NCBI RefSeq assembly: GCF_000321415.2 | Contig: NC_019902.2 | Location: 992,001 to 1,056,000, forward strand | DNA from: Thioalkalivibrio nitratireducens DSM 14787 | Lineage (GTDB): Bacteria; Pseudomonadota; Gammaproteobacteria; Ectothiorhodospirales; Ectothiorhodospiraceae | Direction: 5' to 3' | DNA length: 64,000 nucleotides | In this document: positions 42,292-51,079 of the stretch, piece by piece | Numbering within the stretch: position 1 is the first letter of the stretch | Layout of the letters: each line of letters begins with the position of its first letter | Notes under the pieces: model-generated | The model's database searches: none | Told to the model about the DNA's origin: nothing | What the model saw: the letters and a program-made list of their open reading frames with translations, nothing else | Position numbers and translations under genes: made by a program

Positions 42292-42340
42292 TGCGCAGAC
42301 CAATTGATGCAGGGCATCGTCATCCGATTTCATCTCTCAA

Positions 42341-42620
42341 CCTGATTATCACGAAACCTCCTCAGCCAGTGCGATACCTCTCCGCGTCGGTCGTCATTGC
42401 GAGCGAAGCGCGGCACTAATGCGCGCAGCGCATTGAACAGCCGAAGGCTGGCCCGCAGGGGGAGCGCAGCGAATAATCCAGGCGGCGCGGGGAGGACCAT
42501 CGCCGTCTGGATCGCCACGTCCCGCCACGCTGCGCTCGCGGCTAAAGGCTTCGCTCCTCGCGATGACGCTGGTTTCGAAGATGGCCCAGTCCAGCTTGCG
42601 GAGCTTCCGTGATAATCAGG
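42341..42620. mobile_element. 280-bp MITE (copy 1) with 8-bp target duplication
   Basis: The element begins CCTGATTATCACGAAA and ends GTGATAATCAGG; the outer ~24 bases are inverted repeats with few mismatches. It is flanked on both sides by TCTCTCAA (42333-42340 and 42621-42628), a perfect 8-bp target duplication. It holds no gene. Removing the element and one duplication restores the reading frame of the transposase remnant it interrupts, to ALRDEIG and a stop. A second copy lies at 44155. Confidence 0.9.
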
Positions 42621-42845
42621 TCTCTCAAAGCGTAGGCAAAGGACATCGTGGTGAGTTTGGCGTAGCCGTGCCACATCAGTTGGTGTCCGGGCGGTGGGTC
42701 GTGTTTACGGTTGGTGTAGCCGCCCAGGGTGGCGACTTCCCGGACGGCTGCTTGGAGACTCGTGGGTCGTGGTCGGCGCCGGGACTGAGTGAAGTCGCCA
42801 AGCACCCGCACTTCGACGTCCGAGAACAGCAGTTTCGGCGGCAGG
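42621..42845 (-). pseudogene. IS4-family (Tn5-like) transposase C-terminal remnant
   Basis: On the minus strand this encodes LLFSDVEVRVLGDF, LQAAVREVATLGGY and RKHDPPPGHQLMWHGYAKL, which is the C-terminal part of IS4-family transposases (the LGG-x-GRK-x-DPPPG-x-x-x-LW-x-GY pattern). The N-terminal catalytic part (DDE) is missing. The coding end is separated by the 280-bp MITE; the last codons and stop continue at 42317-42340 on the other side. Open reading extends upstream to 42991 but loses similarity. Confidence 0.75.
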
Positions 42846-44154: not shown

Positions 44155-44499
44155 CCGGATCATCACGAAACCTCCGCAGCGAGCACGACACCGTTCTGCG
44201 TCGGTCGTCATTGCGAGCGCAGCGCGGCACTAATGCGCGCAGCGCATTGAACAGCCGGAGGCTGGCCCGCAGGGTGAGCGCAGCGAATAATCCCGGCGGC
44301 GCGGGGAGGACCATCGCCGTCTGGATCGCCACGTCCCGCCACGCTGCGCTCGCGGCTAAAGGCTTCGCTCCTCGCGATGACGCTGGTTTCGAAGATGGCC
44401 CGTTCCAGCTTGCGGAGCTTCCGTGATAATCCGGTCTCGCGATGACGGTGGTTTCGATGACGGCCCGTTCCAATTTGCGGAGCGTCCGTGATAATCAGG
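44155..44499. mobile_element. Second MITE copy with an extra terminal segment
   Basis: 44155-44434 is nearly identical to 42341-42620 over ~240 bp. Its ends are CCGGATCATCAC and GTGATAATCCGG, so the outer bases differ from copy 1 but again match each other (CCGG/CCGG here, CCTG/CAGG there). A further ~65-bp piece (44435-44499) repeats the right end once more, finishing GTGATAATCAGG. No target duplication was found. The remaining part of the 43974-44580 gap shows no gene. Confidence 0.88.
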
Positions 44500-44580
44500 T
44501 CGGGGGATGGAGCACAACGGCGCGAGAATCCACTAGAATCGGCCGCCTCTATTCTGATGCAAAGCCGCCCAGGTTATCCG

Positions 44581-45660: not shown

Positions 45661-45965
45661 GCCGGGCTTCCTGATGCGATCGAGGTACAGGCGGCCCGGA
45701 CGCTACCCGATGGGGCCAGGATGGACTTCCGGCTTGACGACGGGGTGCTGTTTCTGACGGGGTGCTGTTTCTGAACGTGTCCTGGCCCGAACGGCGTGGA
45801 ACGTTCGACCGAGGGATTTCTAGGCGATGCCGGTGTCCGCTCAGCGGAAACTTCAGATCGAAGGTGCCGATCCAGGAATTCGCCGACCAGGATGGTCCCG
45901 TGCGCCTTGGCGAGTCCTGCTATGCTCAGTCTCGGATCCTGCCTCGGTGCCAGCCACGAGTCTGC
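45661..45965. other. Gap before the site-2 protease gene, no intact gene
   Basis: The upstream continuation of the radical SAM remnant is seen to about 45700 (DRIRKPGALG on the minus strand). A 16-bp direct duplication (GGGGTGCTGTTTCTGA) occurs at 45742-45774. A minus-strand open frame ([18 protein letters not shown]) near 45870-45930 looks coding but is not recognised. Confidence 0.45.
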
Positions 45966-47096
45966 ATGTTCGGTGAAAGCTTCAGCCTGTTTCGGGTACT
46001 GGGGTTCGAGATACGAGCCAATGTCACCTGGCTCTTTCTCGCCCTGCTGATCACCTGGTCGCTCGCCGAGGGCCTGTTCCCCCACTTCTACCCGGAGCTG
46101 GCGCCAGCCGTGTACTGGCTGATGGGCCTGGTGGGCATGCTGGGGCTGTTCTTCTCGCTGCTGTTTCACGAGCTCAGCCATTCCGTGGTGGCGCGCAGCT
46201 ACGGGCTCCGGGTCCGCGGGATCACCCTGTTCCTGTTCGGCGGCATGGCGCAGATGGTCGGCGAGCCGAAGGAGCCGCGGGTGGAGTTCTGGATGGCGAT
46301 CGCGGGGCCCATCGCGAGCCTGTTTCTCGCGGTGGCGTTCTACCTGCTCGGCGCCGGCATGCACGCGGTGGGCGTGCCGGAGCATCTCGCCGGCGTGGCG
46401 TACTACCTGGGTTTCATCAACTTGCTGCTGGCCGTGTTCAACATGGTGCCGGGGTTTCCGCTGGACGGCGGGCGGGTGCTTCGGGCTGCCCTCTGGCATC
46501 TGAAAGGGGATCTGCGCTGGGCGACGCGCTGGGCATCGCGCATGGGCCAGGGGTTCGGGCTGCTGCTGGTCGCGCTGGGGATCGCGAGCTTTGTGGCCGG
46601 CAACTTCATCGGCGGCATGTGGTGGTTCCTGATCGGTCTGTTCGTGCATGCGGCCGCCGGTGCCGGCTATCGCCAGTTGCTCATGCAGCAGGCACTGGCC
46701 GGGCGTAGCGTGCGCCGTTTCATGACCACCGACCCGGTCACGGTGCCTGCCGAGACCAGCATTCGTGATTTCGTCGAGCACTACGTCTACCACCATGCCT
46801 TCGACCTGTTTCCGGTGGAACGCGGCGGCCGGCTCGTGGGCCATGCGGGGCTGCGCGAGGCCAGGCAGGTTGACCGGGAGGCGTGGGATGACACGCGCAT
46901 CGGGGAGGTTTGTCGCGAGGCCGGTGAAGGTGCCACCGTGTCTGCCGACGAGGATGCGAACGAGGCGCTCGAGCGCATGCAGGGTCACCGGGTCAGCCGC
47001 TTGATCGTGACCGAGGGTGATCGCATCGTGGGTATTCTGGCGCTGAAGGATCTCCTGCACTTTCTGCAGGTGCGTTCCGAGCTGGAGAAGGGCTGA
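45966..47096 (+). CDS. Site-2 protease (M50) with C-terminal CBS domains
   Basis: This is a 376-residue intramembrane zinc protease. The zinc motif HELSH is in the second membrane segment ([17 protein letters not shown], near residue 68), with the second-site motif [16 protein letters not shown] further along. The C-terminal ~150 residues form two CBS domains ([23 protein letters not shown] and [26 protein letters not shown]), which usually bind adenine nucleotides and may regulate proteolysis. The ATG at 45966 starts just before the first helix; an open frame extends upstream without similarity. Its substrate is unknown; such proteins often process anti-sigma factors. Confidence 0.92.
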
Positions 47097-47116
47097 ACCG
47101 GGCGGCTGATGGCGTT

Positions 47117-47276
47117 GGGAGCATTACCGGATTGTTCTGGCTCATCCAGGCAGACCGATAAGCGCTGCCTTGGACCGCGTAGGAGCGAGCCTGCTCGCGA
47201 ACGCGCCGCAGGCGCGCCGGGACCAGGGGTCGCCGAGCAGGTTCGTCACCCATTGGAACAAATCCGTAATGCTCCC
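47117..47276. mobile_element. 160-bp MITE with 8-bp target duplication
   Basis: The ends are GGGAGCATTACCGGATTGTT and, inverted, GGGAGCATTACGGATTTGTT: 11 bases match perfectly and the rest with a one-base shift. The element is flanked by ATGGCGTT on both sides (47109-47116 and 47277-47284), a perfect 8-bp target duplication. The centre holds a GAGCGAGCCTGCTCGCGAACGC palindromic-type sequence and no gene. It lies in the gap between the site-2 protease and the GH15 gene, which shows nothing else. Confidence 0.88.
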
Positions 47277-47463
47277 ATGGCGTTGGATCGATACGCCCCG
47301 TGCTACCGGCGTTCGCGGGTGAGCACCGTTTCCACAACGTTGCTTCCGCAGGCGGTGGTCCGGCAGCGGTGGCGGGTGGTGCACCGCGGTGCGATCAGGT
47401 GGCGCGGTCATGGCGCAATCCCCCGACGGCGGGAGCCGAAGCTCGGGGCCGGGCGGCCCCGGG

Positions 47464-49287
47464 TCAGCTGTTGGCCCGGTTCGTTCGCGCCCGGCGCAAG
47501 TTGATGCCGGTGGAGATCAACCCCATGTGGCTGAAGGCCTGCGGGAAGTTCCCGAGGAAGGCCCCGGTCGACGGATCGATCTGTTCCGGCAGCAGGCCCA
47601 GCGGATTGGCTCGCGCGCACAGCGAATCGAACAGGTCGACGGCTTCGTCGAGACGCCCTTGCCCGGCGAGATTGTCTGCCAGCCAGAAGCTGCACAACAG
47701 GAATGCGCCCTCGTGGCCCGGCAGGCCGTCCGGCGACTCGTCGGGGAGATAGCGGTACAACAGACCGTCGCCGGCGCCGAGCCGGCGTATCACAGACCGG
47801 GTGGTCGCCACCATCCTGGGGTGGTCGGCGGGAACGACGCCACGCAGCGGCAGTGCCAGCAGGCTGGCGTCGATTCCGCCGCCGCCGAGGTGCTCGGTCA
47901 GCGACTGCAACCGCGGATCCCAGGCGTGTTCCAGGATCGCGTTGCGGATGCGCGCCGCCTCGGCCTGCCAGCGTTCGGCGTCTCCTTCCAGTCCATTGCC
48001 TTGCGCCATCCGTGCGCCGCGGTCCAGTGCCACCGCGCACAACGACGCGGAGTAGGTGAACGGCCGGCCCGGGGTGCGCACCTCCCAGATCCCGTGGTCG
48101 GGAGTCTGCCATTCCGCGGCTGCGGCTTCGACGAGTCGCCGCAGCCGTGCCCAGAGCGCTGCGTCGAGTGTGCCGCCCCAGCGCACCCATCGATACGCGC
48201 AGTCCAGGATCTCGCCGAACACGTCGTGCTGGCGCTGCTCGGCCGCCGCGTTGCCCCAGCGCACCGGGGCCGATCCGCGGTATCCCTCCAGGGCGCTGTC
48301 CAGACACTCGGGAGGCGGCGGGTGACCGTCGACGTCGTAGAGCACCCGCGGCCTGCCGGCACGGTCGACCGCGTCGAGCACCCAGCCGAGGAAACCCGCG
48401 GCCTCGTGCCCCATCCCGATCCGCCCCAGCGCATAGACAGAGAACGCCGCGTCGCGGATCCAGGCATAGCGGTAGTCCCAGTTGCGCGGCCCGCCGATCG
48501 CCTCCGGCAGCGACGAGGTCGGCGCGGCGATCATCGCGCCGGTGGCGGTGTGGTCCATCAGCTTGAGCGTGATGGCCGCGCGGCGCACCAGGGGCTCCTG
48601 CGGCCCGTCGTAGCGGTAGTGGCGCATCCAGTTCCGCCATACCGCGATCGTGTCCGCGAGGAGTTCCTCCGGCGACTTCGGATGGAACCGGTGGCCCGGG
48701 GCGCCCCAGGAAAGCAGCAGGTGATGCCGGACGCCAGCGGTGAGCTCGTGGGTGCTGTCGACGTCTTCCAGCGGCAGCGAGGACGCGAGATGGAGCTCCA
48801 GCTCCGGCCGGCGCGGCAAGCGCAGCCCGAGGCCGCCCGCATGCGGATAGCACGCGGCGCCGCCCCGGGGTTCGATGCGAACACGCAGGCGCACCCGGCC
48901 CTGGATCACCTCGATCAACCGCAGGAGCTCCCCGCGGCCGGCCGCGACGTCCTCGGACAGGTCGGCCCCGGCGCGCAGGGTCAGCGCATCGGTCACGCGC
49001 AGGCGTCCATTGGGCCCCGTCAGTTCGGTCACCAGCACGCCGGTATCCGCCTCGTAGCGCTGGATCGCGCCGGTCAATGGCTCCGGCGTCACCGCAAAGG
49101 CGCCGCCGTGCGTTCGGTCCAGCAATCCGCAGAAGAGGGGGTCGGAATCGAACCGGGGCACGCAGAGCCAGGAGATCGCGCCGTCGCGGCCGACCAGCGC
49201 CGCCGTGCCGCCGTCCCCGATCAGCCCGTGTTCCTCGATGGGCAGATAGCCGTCCCGCAAGCTCGGGGGTGCATCAGCGTCACTCAA
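47464..49287 (-). CDS. GH15 family glycosidase (glucoamylase/trehalase-like)
   Basis: This is a 607-residue cytoplasmic GH15 protein. It begins with the conserved DGYLPIEEHGLIGDGGTAALVGRDGAISWLCVPRFDSDP. The (alpha/alpha)6 domain has RNWDYRYAWIRDAAFSVYAL, GIWEVR (general acid Glu) and GHEGAFLLCSFWLADNL (general base Glu). The TTG start at 49287 is chosen because GGAGG lies 7 bp upstream; the longer open frame covers treZ in another frame. Relatives include glucoamylases, trehalases and dextran glucosidases, so the substrate is not fixed by sequence. It is the last gene of the treXYZ operon, 58 bp after treZ, suggesting action on glycogen or trehalose. Confidence 0.9.
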   Translation of the reverse strand: MSDADAPPSLRDGYLPIEEHGLIGDGGTAALVGRDGAISWLCVPRFDSDPLFCGLLDRTHGGAFAVTPEPLTGAIQRYEADTGVLVTELTGPNGRLRVTDALTLRAGADLSEDVAAGRGELLRLIEVIQGRVRLRVRIEPRGGAACYPHAGGLGLRLPRRPELELHLASSLPLEDVDSTHELTAGVRHHLLLSWGAPGHRFHPKSPEELLADTIAVWRNWMRHYRYDGPQEPLVRRAAITLKLMDHTATGAMIAAPTSSLPEAIGGPRNWDYRYAWIRDAAFSVYALGRIGMGHEAAGFLGWVLDAVDRAGRPRVLYDVDGHPPPPECLDSALEGYRGSAPVRWGNAAAEQRQHDVFGEILDCAYRWVRWGGTLDAALWARLRRLVEAAAAEWQTPDHGIWEVRTPGRPFTYSASLCAVALDRGARMAQGNGLEGDAERWQAEAARIRNAILEHAWDPRLQSLTEHLGGGGIDASLLALPLRGVVPADHPRMVATTRSVIRRLGAGDGLLYRYLPDESPDGLPGHEGAFLLCSFWLADNLAGQGRLDEAVDLFDSLCARANPLGLLPEQIDPSTGAFLGNFPQAFSHMGLISTGINLRRARTNRANS

Positions 49288-49345
49288 TCGTGTCCTCCAA
49301 CAGGTGACCGGATGGATCGTTTTCCAGCGTCGAGGGTACGTGGGC

Positions 49346-51079
49346 TCAGTCGCACAGCACCGCGACCGATTCACCCGGCAGCACCAGGGTGCTGCCTTCG
49401 CGTGCGACGCCGGGGTTCGAGCCGAGCAGCACCCCGCAGCCGGCGGCCTCCGGGCAGTCCAGCCGCTGCGCGTCGCCCGCCAGGTTACAGGCCACCACGA
49501 TACCCGGGCGGAGCATGACGAGCCACCGGCGCCCGTCGTCGAAATGTACCCGTATCGGCTCCAGCCGGTCGTCGGCGAACGCCGGATGCCCGCGGCGCAG
49601 CGCGATGAGTCTGCGGTGCCACTCAAGGAGCTCCGCGTGCGGCGCCCGCGAGCGTTCGTCCCAGTCCAGCCGCGACCGCTCGAAGGTTTCGCGCGCCTGG
49701 GGATCGGGGATGCCCTCCGGGTCCCAGCCGAAGGCCGCGAACTCCTTGCGCCGTCCGTCGCGCACAGCAGCTCCCAGTTCCGGGTCGGAATGGTCGGTGA
49801 AGTACAGGAAAGGGGTCGTTGCACCCCATTCCTCGCCCTGGAACAGCATCGGCACGAATGGCGAGGTCAGCACCAGCGCGGCCCCGACCTTCAGCAGCTC
49901 CGGCGACAGCAGGTGGCTGCTGCGCTCGCCGGCGGCGCGGTTGCCGACCTGGTCGTGGTTCTGCAGGCAGCCGACGAAACGCCGGCCCGGCACGCCGGTC
50001 GCGGCCCGCCCGTGGTTGCGCCGCCGGTAGCGGGAGTACGCGCCGTCGTACGCGAATCCGCGTGTGAGCACGCGGGCGAGGTCGGCCAGCCGGCCGAAGT
50101 CTGCGTAGTAGCCGCCGGATTCCCCGGTCAGCGCAGCATGCAGGGCATGGTGGAAGTCCTCGTTCCACTGGGCGTCGAGTCCGTGACCCCCGATCGCCAC
50201 CGGGCGCACGGTGCGCGGATCGTTCAGATCGCTCTCGGCGATCAGCACCAGGTGGCGGCCGAGCTCGGCCTCCAGGCGCCGAACCTCCGCGGACAGCGCC
50301 TCGAGGAAGTGGGTCGCGGAGGTATCGACGATCGCGTGGATCGCGTCGATGCGCAGGCCGTCGAAATGGTAGTCCCGCAGCCACATCCGCGCATTGTCGA
50401 GGAAGAAGCGCCGCACCTCGTCGCTGTGCGCGCGGTCGAGGTTGACCGCGTCGCCCCAGGGGGTGTGGTAGGCATCGGTGAAGTAGGGGCCGAATCGCGC
50501 CAGGTAGTTGCCGTCGGGGCCGAGGTGGTTGTAGACGACGTCGAGTAGCACGGCCAGGCCCCGGCGGTGGCAGGCGTCGACCAGTCGTTTCAGTCCGTCG
50601 GGTCCGCCGTAGGCGTGGTGGGGTGCGAACAAGTCGACGCCGTCGTAGCCCCAGCCCCGTGTCCCCGGAAATTCCTGCACCGGCATCAGCTCGACGTGCG
50701 TGATCCCCAGTGCCACCAGGTGGTCGAGCCGGTCGATCACCGCGTCGAAGGTGCCGGCCGGGGTGAGGGTACCGACGTGGATTTCGGCAATCACCGCCGC
50801 CGACAGCGGCGGGGCCTGCCAGCCGGCGTCACTCCACTCGAAGCGGGTATGGTCCACCCAGCGCGACGGCCCGTGCACGCCCTCGGGCTGCCAGCGGGAG
50901 CGCGGATCCGGGAACGGGCCGTCGCCATCGAGGCGGAAGCCGTAGTCGACGCCGTGTGCAAGCGGCGACGCTTCCAGCGTCCACCAGCCGCCGTCCCCGC
51001 ATGCCATCGGCGTGTCGGTGCCGCCGCACTCCAGCACGACCTGCTCGGCATCCGGCGCCCAGACCCGCAGCACGGTCAT
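49346..51079 (-). CDS. treZ: Malto-oligosyltrehalose trehalohydrolase
   Basis: This is a 577-residue GH13 enzyme that releases trehalose from maltooligosyl-trehalose. An N-terminal CBM48-type domain (VLRVWAPDAEQVVLE) precedes the barrel. Barrel motifs are VLLDVVYNHLGPDGNYL, GLRIDAIHAIVD (nucleophile Asp), LIAESDLNDPR (acid Glu) and FVGCLQNHDQVGNRA. The WGYDGVDLFAPHHAYGGPDGLK block is typical of TreZ. Start and stop are set by ATGA overlap with treY at 51076-51079. It completes the TreX-TreY-TreZ route. Confidence 0.95.
   Translation of the reverse strand: MTVLRVWAPDAEQVVLECGGTDTPMACGDGGWWTLEASPLAHGVDYGFRLDGDGPFPDPRSRWQPEGVHGPSRWVDHTRFEWSDAGWQAPPLSAAVIAEIHVGTLTPAGTFDAVIDRLDHLVALGITHVELMPVQEFPGTRGWGYDGVDLFAPHHAYGGPDGLKRLVDACHRRGLAVLLDVVYNHLGPDGNYLARFGPYFTDAYHTPWGDAVNLDRAHSDEVRRFFLDNARMWLRDYHFDGLRIDAIHAIVDTSATHFLEALSAEVRRLEAELGRHLVLIAESDLNDPRTVRPVAIGGHGLDAQWNEDFHHALHAALTGESGGYYADFGRLADLARVLTRGFAYDGAYSRYRRRNHGRAATGVPGRRFVGCLQNHDQVGNRAAGERSSHLLSPELLKVGAALVLTSPFVPMLFQGEEWGATTPFLYFTDHSDPELGAAVRDGRRKEFAAFGWDPEGIPDPQARETFERSRLDWDERSRAPHAELLEWHRRLIALRRGHPAFADDRLEPIRVHFDDGRRWLVMLRPGIVVACNLAGDAQRLDCPEAAGCGVLLGSNPGVAREGSTLVLPGESVAVLCD

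Follow-up and report, generated by a model that had tools for sequence, protein, structure and literature searches.

A 160-bp MITE of Thioalkalivibrio nitratireducens and its probable mobilisation by a DruA-bearing clade of ISKra4-family elements

A 160-bp MITE lies between two convergent genes in the window, a stretch of 64,000 nucleotides from Thioalkalivibrio nitratireducens DSM 14787 (contig NC_019902.2, positions 992,001 to 1,056,000), and it is very probably a non-autonomous element that was moved by a DDE transposase from a DruA-bearing clade of the ISKra4 family (Mutator-like, p-MULT 4). The ends of the MITE, its target duplications, its further copies, an empty site and the agreement of its end and duplication length with those of ISKra4 elements can all be read directly from the DNA. 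In its interior the MITE carries a palindrome of the kind known as a GTAG-tagged REP.

At 47109-47284 the window reads ATGGCGTT, then 160 bp that start with GGGAGCATTAC and finish with GTAATGCTCCC, then ATGGCGTT again. The sequence-only reading had described a 160-bp MITE here with exact termini and 8-bp duplications, and both its coordinates and its letters are exact. The two copies of the target duplication occupy 47109..47116 and 47277..47284 and the MITE itself 47117..47276. Its left terminal inverted repeat, GGGAGCATTACCGGATTGTTCT, is at 47117..47138 on the forward strand, while the right one, at 47255..47276 on the reverse strand, reads GGGAGCATTACGGATTTGTTCC in the inward direction. The outer 11 bp pair perfectly between both ends, and a repeat search of the window returned an inverted pair of 22 nt with 86% complementarity (47116-47137 and 47256-47277). 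The 160 bp are non-coding, crossed only by mechanical reading frames that run straight through, and are predicted to form a single long hairpin on either strand, with a fold of about -83 kcal/mol (RNA parameters, without shuffle control). In the 3.2-kb locus L001 nothing in Rfam matched, with E values up to 1 allowed.

The MITE starts 20 bp beyond the stop codon of an M50 protease-like gene with CBS domains (45951..47096, forward strand) and stops 187 bp from the end of a convergent gene of glycoside hydrolase family 15 (GH15; 47464..49824, reverse strand). The gene starts are provisional, and neither gene is broken by the element; the convergent setting of this copy gives no hint of a preference for insertion close to promoters. 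Elsewhere in the window, at 42340-42621, a stretch of 282 bp is bounded by inverted ends of 25 nt (88%), and two more copies of its end are found about 2 kb away at 44411-44445 and 44476-44509. This stretch is probably the 280-bp element from which the sequence-only reading had set the MITE apart by its termini, and its ends (42340-42364 and 42597-42621) are indeed different.

Copies of the MITE were sought in 58 genomes including its own, 30 of which belong to the genus. Five full copies were found, spread over three of the 30 genomes from the genus: its own (G000, a single contig of 4,002,350 bp) and the congeners G011 and G008. Besides the copy in the window, the own genome holds a second at 2777808-2777967 that is 100% identical over 160 bp and a third at 1490620-1490779 that is 98% identical, with 3 differences in 160. 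The copies in G011 and G008 are each 94% identical, that of G008 being one base shorter. The five copies lie in five different target sequences, and the flanking 8-mers agree at 8/8 positions in the window, 8/8 at 2777808, 6/8 at 1490620, 7/8 in G011 and 8/8 in G008. Because full copies occur elsewhere with flanking repeats of their own, the 160-bp element is a mobile one and not a chance arrangement of letters. The existence of these copies also answers a reservation of the sequence-only reading, that the element might prove to have neither an autonomous partner nor further copies.

The site that is occupied in the window is empty in G011, where a single ATGGCGTT stands without the element. 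There the end of the M50 protease gene and the downstream flank show 91% identity to the joined flanks of the window copy in an alignment of 646 columns, whose two gaps of 1 and 12 bases both lie away from the junction. G011 is the sole comparison for this site; eight other congeners align in the protease gene region only. The flanks of the copy at 2777808 are also unbroken in G011 (76% over 101 columns), with an ungapped junction and target letters that have diverged. At the third copy, similarity to the G011 site, GGCCGATT, is seen in the right flank, GGCCGGTT, and not in the left one; a 38-base near-palindrome (L078, G000:C1:1490583-1490620), incomplete in G011, directly adjoins this copy. 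A local rearrangement after insertion would account for its imperfect duplication. Since G011 lacks the insertion at the window site and another of the copies is 100% identical, the proposal of the sequence-only reading that the insertion in the window is recent is supported, in the relative sense of fairly recent.

The 160 bp gave no match in the plasmid and phage collections. The 21-base terminus pattern had no exact match in genome_contigs and viral_contigs, from which the window's own or very near records may be absent. A class-wide scan of 369 genomes with one mismatch allowed found it in the genome of the window alone; G011 and G008 were outside this sample. A near-terminus in G028, GGGCGCATTACCGATT, was set aside, having no facing partner and surroundings, with unannotated frames, that look like chance. 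In G011 a solitary MITE-like left end of 31 bp (94%; L076, G011:C1:222858) has a different continuation, with no convincing right end within 4 kb; it is followed by another short repeat that is also present in loci of G000.

The ends of the MITE led to a possible partner in its own genome. The terminus GGGAGCATTACNG, allowing one mismatch, was searched for in G000, G011 and G008 and gave 12+11, 4+5 and 4+3 matches respectively, compared with 5+16, 8+8 and 1+5 in a backwards control; lone matches are therefore at the level of noise, and only facing pairs were used. Such a pair, with facing GGGAGCATTACGC ends 2,377 bp apart, was found at G000:1076072-1078448, about 20 kb past the end of the window. 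This 2,377-bp element ends in GGGAGCATTACGCTTTTGTCCC, its two 22-bp ends being identical to each other, and they agree with the right end of the MITE at 19/22 positions and with the left end at 16/22. Of its two genes, one is for a protein with a DruA domain (Pfam PF14236, 137.2 bits against a cut-off of 27) and the other for a transposase of the ISKra4 family (NCBIfam NF033572, 288.9 bits against a cut-off of 205). The partner transposase that the sequence-only reading had called for thus has a candidate in this ISKra4-family element of the same genome, which has two genes and similar ends but is probably not intact. Its flanks agree at 2/8 positions, giving no target duplication, and the C-terminal transposase residues known from its relatives lie in another frame here, as if the frame had shifted near the C-terminus, so this full-length copy may be dead. 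The other ISKra4 copies found in the genome are deleted or fragmentary. Two of them, at 2355018-2355508 and 114683-115200 (G000:C1), are without nearly the same transposase residues, 75-338, and this common internal loss suggests that a deleted copy itself moved or was duplicated. No ISKra4 transposase was found in the MITE-holding congeners G011 and G008, the latter 79% complete. With the resident copies apparently damaged or partial and no ISKra4 match in these two congeners, the 160-bp MITE is probably not mobile at present, unless an ISKra4 copy was missed.

When the 160 bp were compared by BLAST with the loci, among the matches listed, and with the genus, no match to the interior of a full-length element was obtained. 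Only the ends of about 22 bp are common to the MITE and the resident element, so the MITE did not arise from the latter by simple internal deletion, and judged from these letters the MITE is ISKra4-type by its ends and not an ISKra4 deletion derivative. The own genome holds a second MITE family, with GGGAGCATTACAC ends 158 and 159 bp apart. Its two members are 91% identical, lie in opposite orientations and occur in 1 of the 30 genus genomes; their ends, GGGAGCATTACACTTTTGTCCC, are identical to those of the resident ISKra4-type element at 21/22 positions, and each is flanked by an 8/8 duplication, TTTTCACG and CATCGAGG. As a query against the genus genomes this family did not recover the 160-bp family. 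The same type of end around a different interior fits the use of these ends in trans, as far as sequence comparison goes.

The same clade was reached from the protein side. With the transposase protein alone as query against genome_contigs, 36 stretches matched a pattern, of which seven encode an ISKra4 relative (47-64% identity; five of the seven records are delta-type by title). Two of these loci, L108 and L109, reach the contig end before a complete gene, while the other five extend past the transposase gene and all carry a terminus like GGGAGCATTAC beyond it, without mismatch in L104, L106 and L110 and with one in L105 and L107. The terminus is present at both sides in four of the five loci and at the right side only in L107. 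At one mismatch the 11-mer has 10 matches in the seven loci, compared with a mean of 0.54 and a maximum of 3 in 200 two-base-block shuffles. A control set of 14 distant Mutator-type transposase loci of the genus (43.7 kb) gave 0 terminus matches, which says little because these loci are mostly copies of two elements and the chance expectation is about 1. Three more distant ISKra4-like loci on plasmids (L183-L185, 26-40% identity) do not have the GGGAGCATTAC-type end, so this terminus marks a clade and not the whole ISKra4 family.

The complete elements examined from this clade share a layout of two genes. In L104, L105 and L106 a DruA protein (171-186 bits) is followed by an ISKra4 transposase above the cut-off (219-267 bits), and by Pfam a DruA-domain gene precedes the ISKra4 transposase in all four complete elements examined (L072, L104, L105 and L106). 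The PADLOC DruA models gave only weak, part-length matches to the two such proteins compared with them. L106, a complete element with both the DruA and the ISKra4 gene, is flanked by an 8/8 duplication, GGTCGGAA, and it is the single source for the 8-bp duplication of a full-length ISKra4 element, since no duplication is seen at L104 (1/8), L105 (2/8) or L110 (4/8). It ends in GGGAGCATTACCGG, the first 14 bases of the left end of the MITE, and L110, a 1,026-bp element with part of a transposase region and no space for DruA, shares these first 14 bases too. The left end of the MITE agrees at 19/22 positions with L110 and at 18/22 with L106; taken together, the ends of the MITE and of full-length elements agree at 15-19/22 positions, with the first 11 bases in common with the resident element.

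The interior of the MITE does not come from the full-length elements examined. Its positions 63-100 (47179..47216, forward strand) read GTAGGAGCGAGCCTGCTCGCGAACGCGCCGCAGGCGCG, a palindrome opening with GTAGGAGCGAGCCTGCTCGCGA that is laid out as GTAG GAGCGAGC CT GCTCGC, and by its letters it fits a GTAG-tagged REP. GTAG-tagged REPs have been reported in two Thioalkalivibrio strains, in the sections of PMC3733652 considered here. Besides the three full copies, the own genome has at least 42 short matches, a lower bound from 40 of 109 candidates scored, and all of them fall in query positions 59-113 of 176 and stop short of the ends of the MITE. A REP-rich region at G000:C1:594000-683000 (L118-L120) contributes 23 of the 42 short matches among those listed (595-683 kb), and in the part of this cluster at 594.0-614.0 kb the REP has, by eye, an inverted partner. 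An integron attC was considered for the clustered repeat and set aside, the repeats being read as GTAG REPs with inverted partners, again by eye. The same 594.0-614.0 kb hold many pairs of duplicated stretches, 84-97% alike, a repeated frame in the cluster resembles, by eye, an antitoxin-type small protein, and G011 has a similar REP cluster at about 1.19-1.25 Mb. A REP copy in each of G000 and G011 has, about 0.4 kb away, a partial reading frame like Y1_Tnp, which may or may not be that of a RAYT. The REP is present in 5/5 copies of the MITE, and for this reason it was probably captured before the MITE family spread.

The DruA-bearing ISKra4 clade is the best-supported driver of the MITE on these comparisons of ends and proteins, and we infer mobilisation in trans, its biochemical steps and the order of capture as follows. 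The ends of the MITE would be recognition sites for an ISKra4-family transposase, of the clade whose elements end in GGGAGCATTAC and have a DruA-like gene before the transposase gene. Acting in trans, the transposase would bind the ends of 20-odd bp and excise or copy the element, which would be joined to staggered target DNA, and repair of an 8-base stagger would leave the 8-bp duplication. Insertion would have taken place between two convergent genes with neither disrupted, and the REP palindrome would have been taken into the interior before the family spread.

Three other explanations need to be weighed against mobilisation by this clade. The position of the MITE between two convergent 3' ends and its strong predicted hairpin on both strands would also suit a transposon fossil that has been kept for terminating transcription in both directions or for forming a hairpin at mRNA ends, which we regard as unlikely: in G011, the one genome comparable at the site, both flanks are present and the site is empty, and any MITE with a palindrome inside would be expected to form a long hairpin. 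It is quite unlikely that the element was moved by a different, so-far-unfound transposase whose ends happen to be similar (GGGAGC...) and whose stagger is also 8 bp. The resident ends agree with those of the MITE at the 16/22 and 19/22 positions given above and no better, and no ISKra4 transposase was found in the congeners with copies of the MITE. Against it stands the agreement with one transposase clade, seen in the 11-bp terminus, in the first 14 bases (L106 and L110) and in the length of the duplication (8 bp, L106), and this clade was arrived at by two routes, one starting from the terminal DNA and one from the protein sequence.

Least probable of all, and to our mind very improbable, is a REP or REPIN unit spread by a RAYT (an HUH tyrosine transposase) around which the outer inverted repeat is incidental. 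The GTAG REP in the interior and the partial Y1_Tnp-like frames near REP copies would be at home in such an explanation, but what moved is a unit of 160 bp that is flanked by duplications of 8 bp, the short REP matches end before the termini of the MITE, and the empty site in G011 with its single 8-bp target disfavours a RAYT. IS200/IS605-type HUH transposases are not known to make target duplications.

The MITE is thus best placed beside the ISKra4 family (p-MULT 4; Guerillot et al. 2014, PMC3942029), with which it shares the terminus and duplication length of the DruA-bearing elements described here, whose transposases pass the NCBIfam ISKra4 cut-off, while it differs in having no transposase and no similarity past the ends. 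In the sections considered of that paper the family is divided into three subgroups and four of its elements carry additional genes of unknown function, and the layout of DruA and transposase and the GGGAGCATTAC terminus are not among the features listed there. The size, inverted ends, non-coding interior, dispersed copies and position next to genes are those of the bacterial MITEs RUP, NEMIS and Nezha as presented in the relevant part of PMC3733652; unlike these, the 160-bp MITE has ends that match an ISKra4-type transposase clade and a REP inside. The interior likewise resembles the GTAG REPs and REPINs outlined in parts of PMC3733652 and PMC3116915 in its GTAG-tagged palindrome, its many dispersed copies and, by eye, an inverted partner, whereas here the REP is not free but is carried as cargo inside a MITE whose ends are of DDE type and whose duplications measure 8 bp. 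Among the titles of the literature on ISKra4, MITEs and REPs we found no ISKra4-type MITE, and an earlier description is possible, for example in ISfinder, which this literature did not cover; among titles and the beginnings of abstracts on DruA/DUF4338, ISKra4 and transposases, we found no DruA-bearing insertion sequence. What is added to the known MITEs is the assignment of a parent and the REP cargo.

Through these observations an orphan MITE is connected with a transposase clade that has a name, and a REP is seen inside a MITE with DDE-type ends. It is conceivable, though doubtful, that the ISKra4 clade took DruA-like proteins as transposition partners and that MITEs of this kind are a second, RAYT-independent route by which REPs spread; if that were true, the DruA of the antiphage system Druantia would be a transposon protein turned to defence. 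The clade also gains a recognisable end, GGGAGCATTAC with an 8-bp duplication, by which more MITEs and their parents may be found from sequence.
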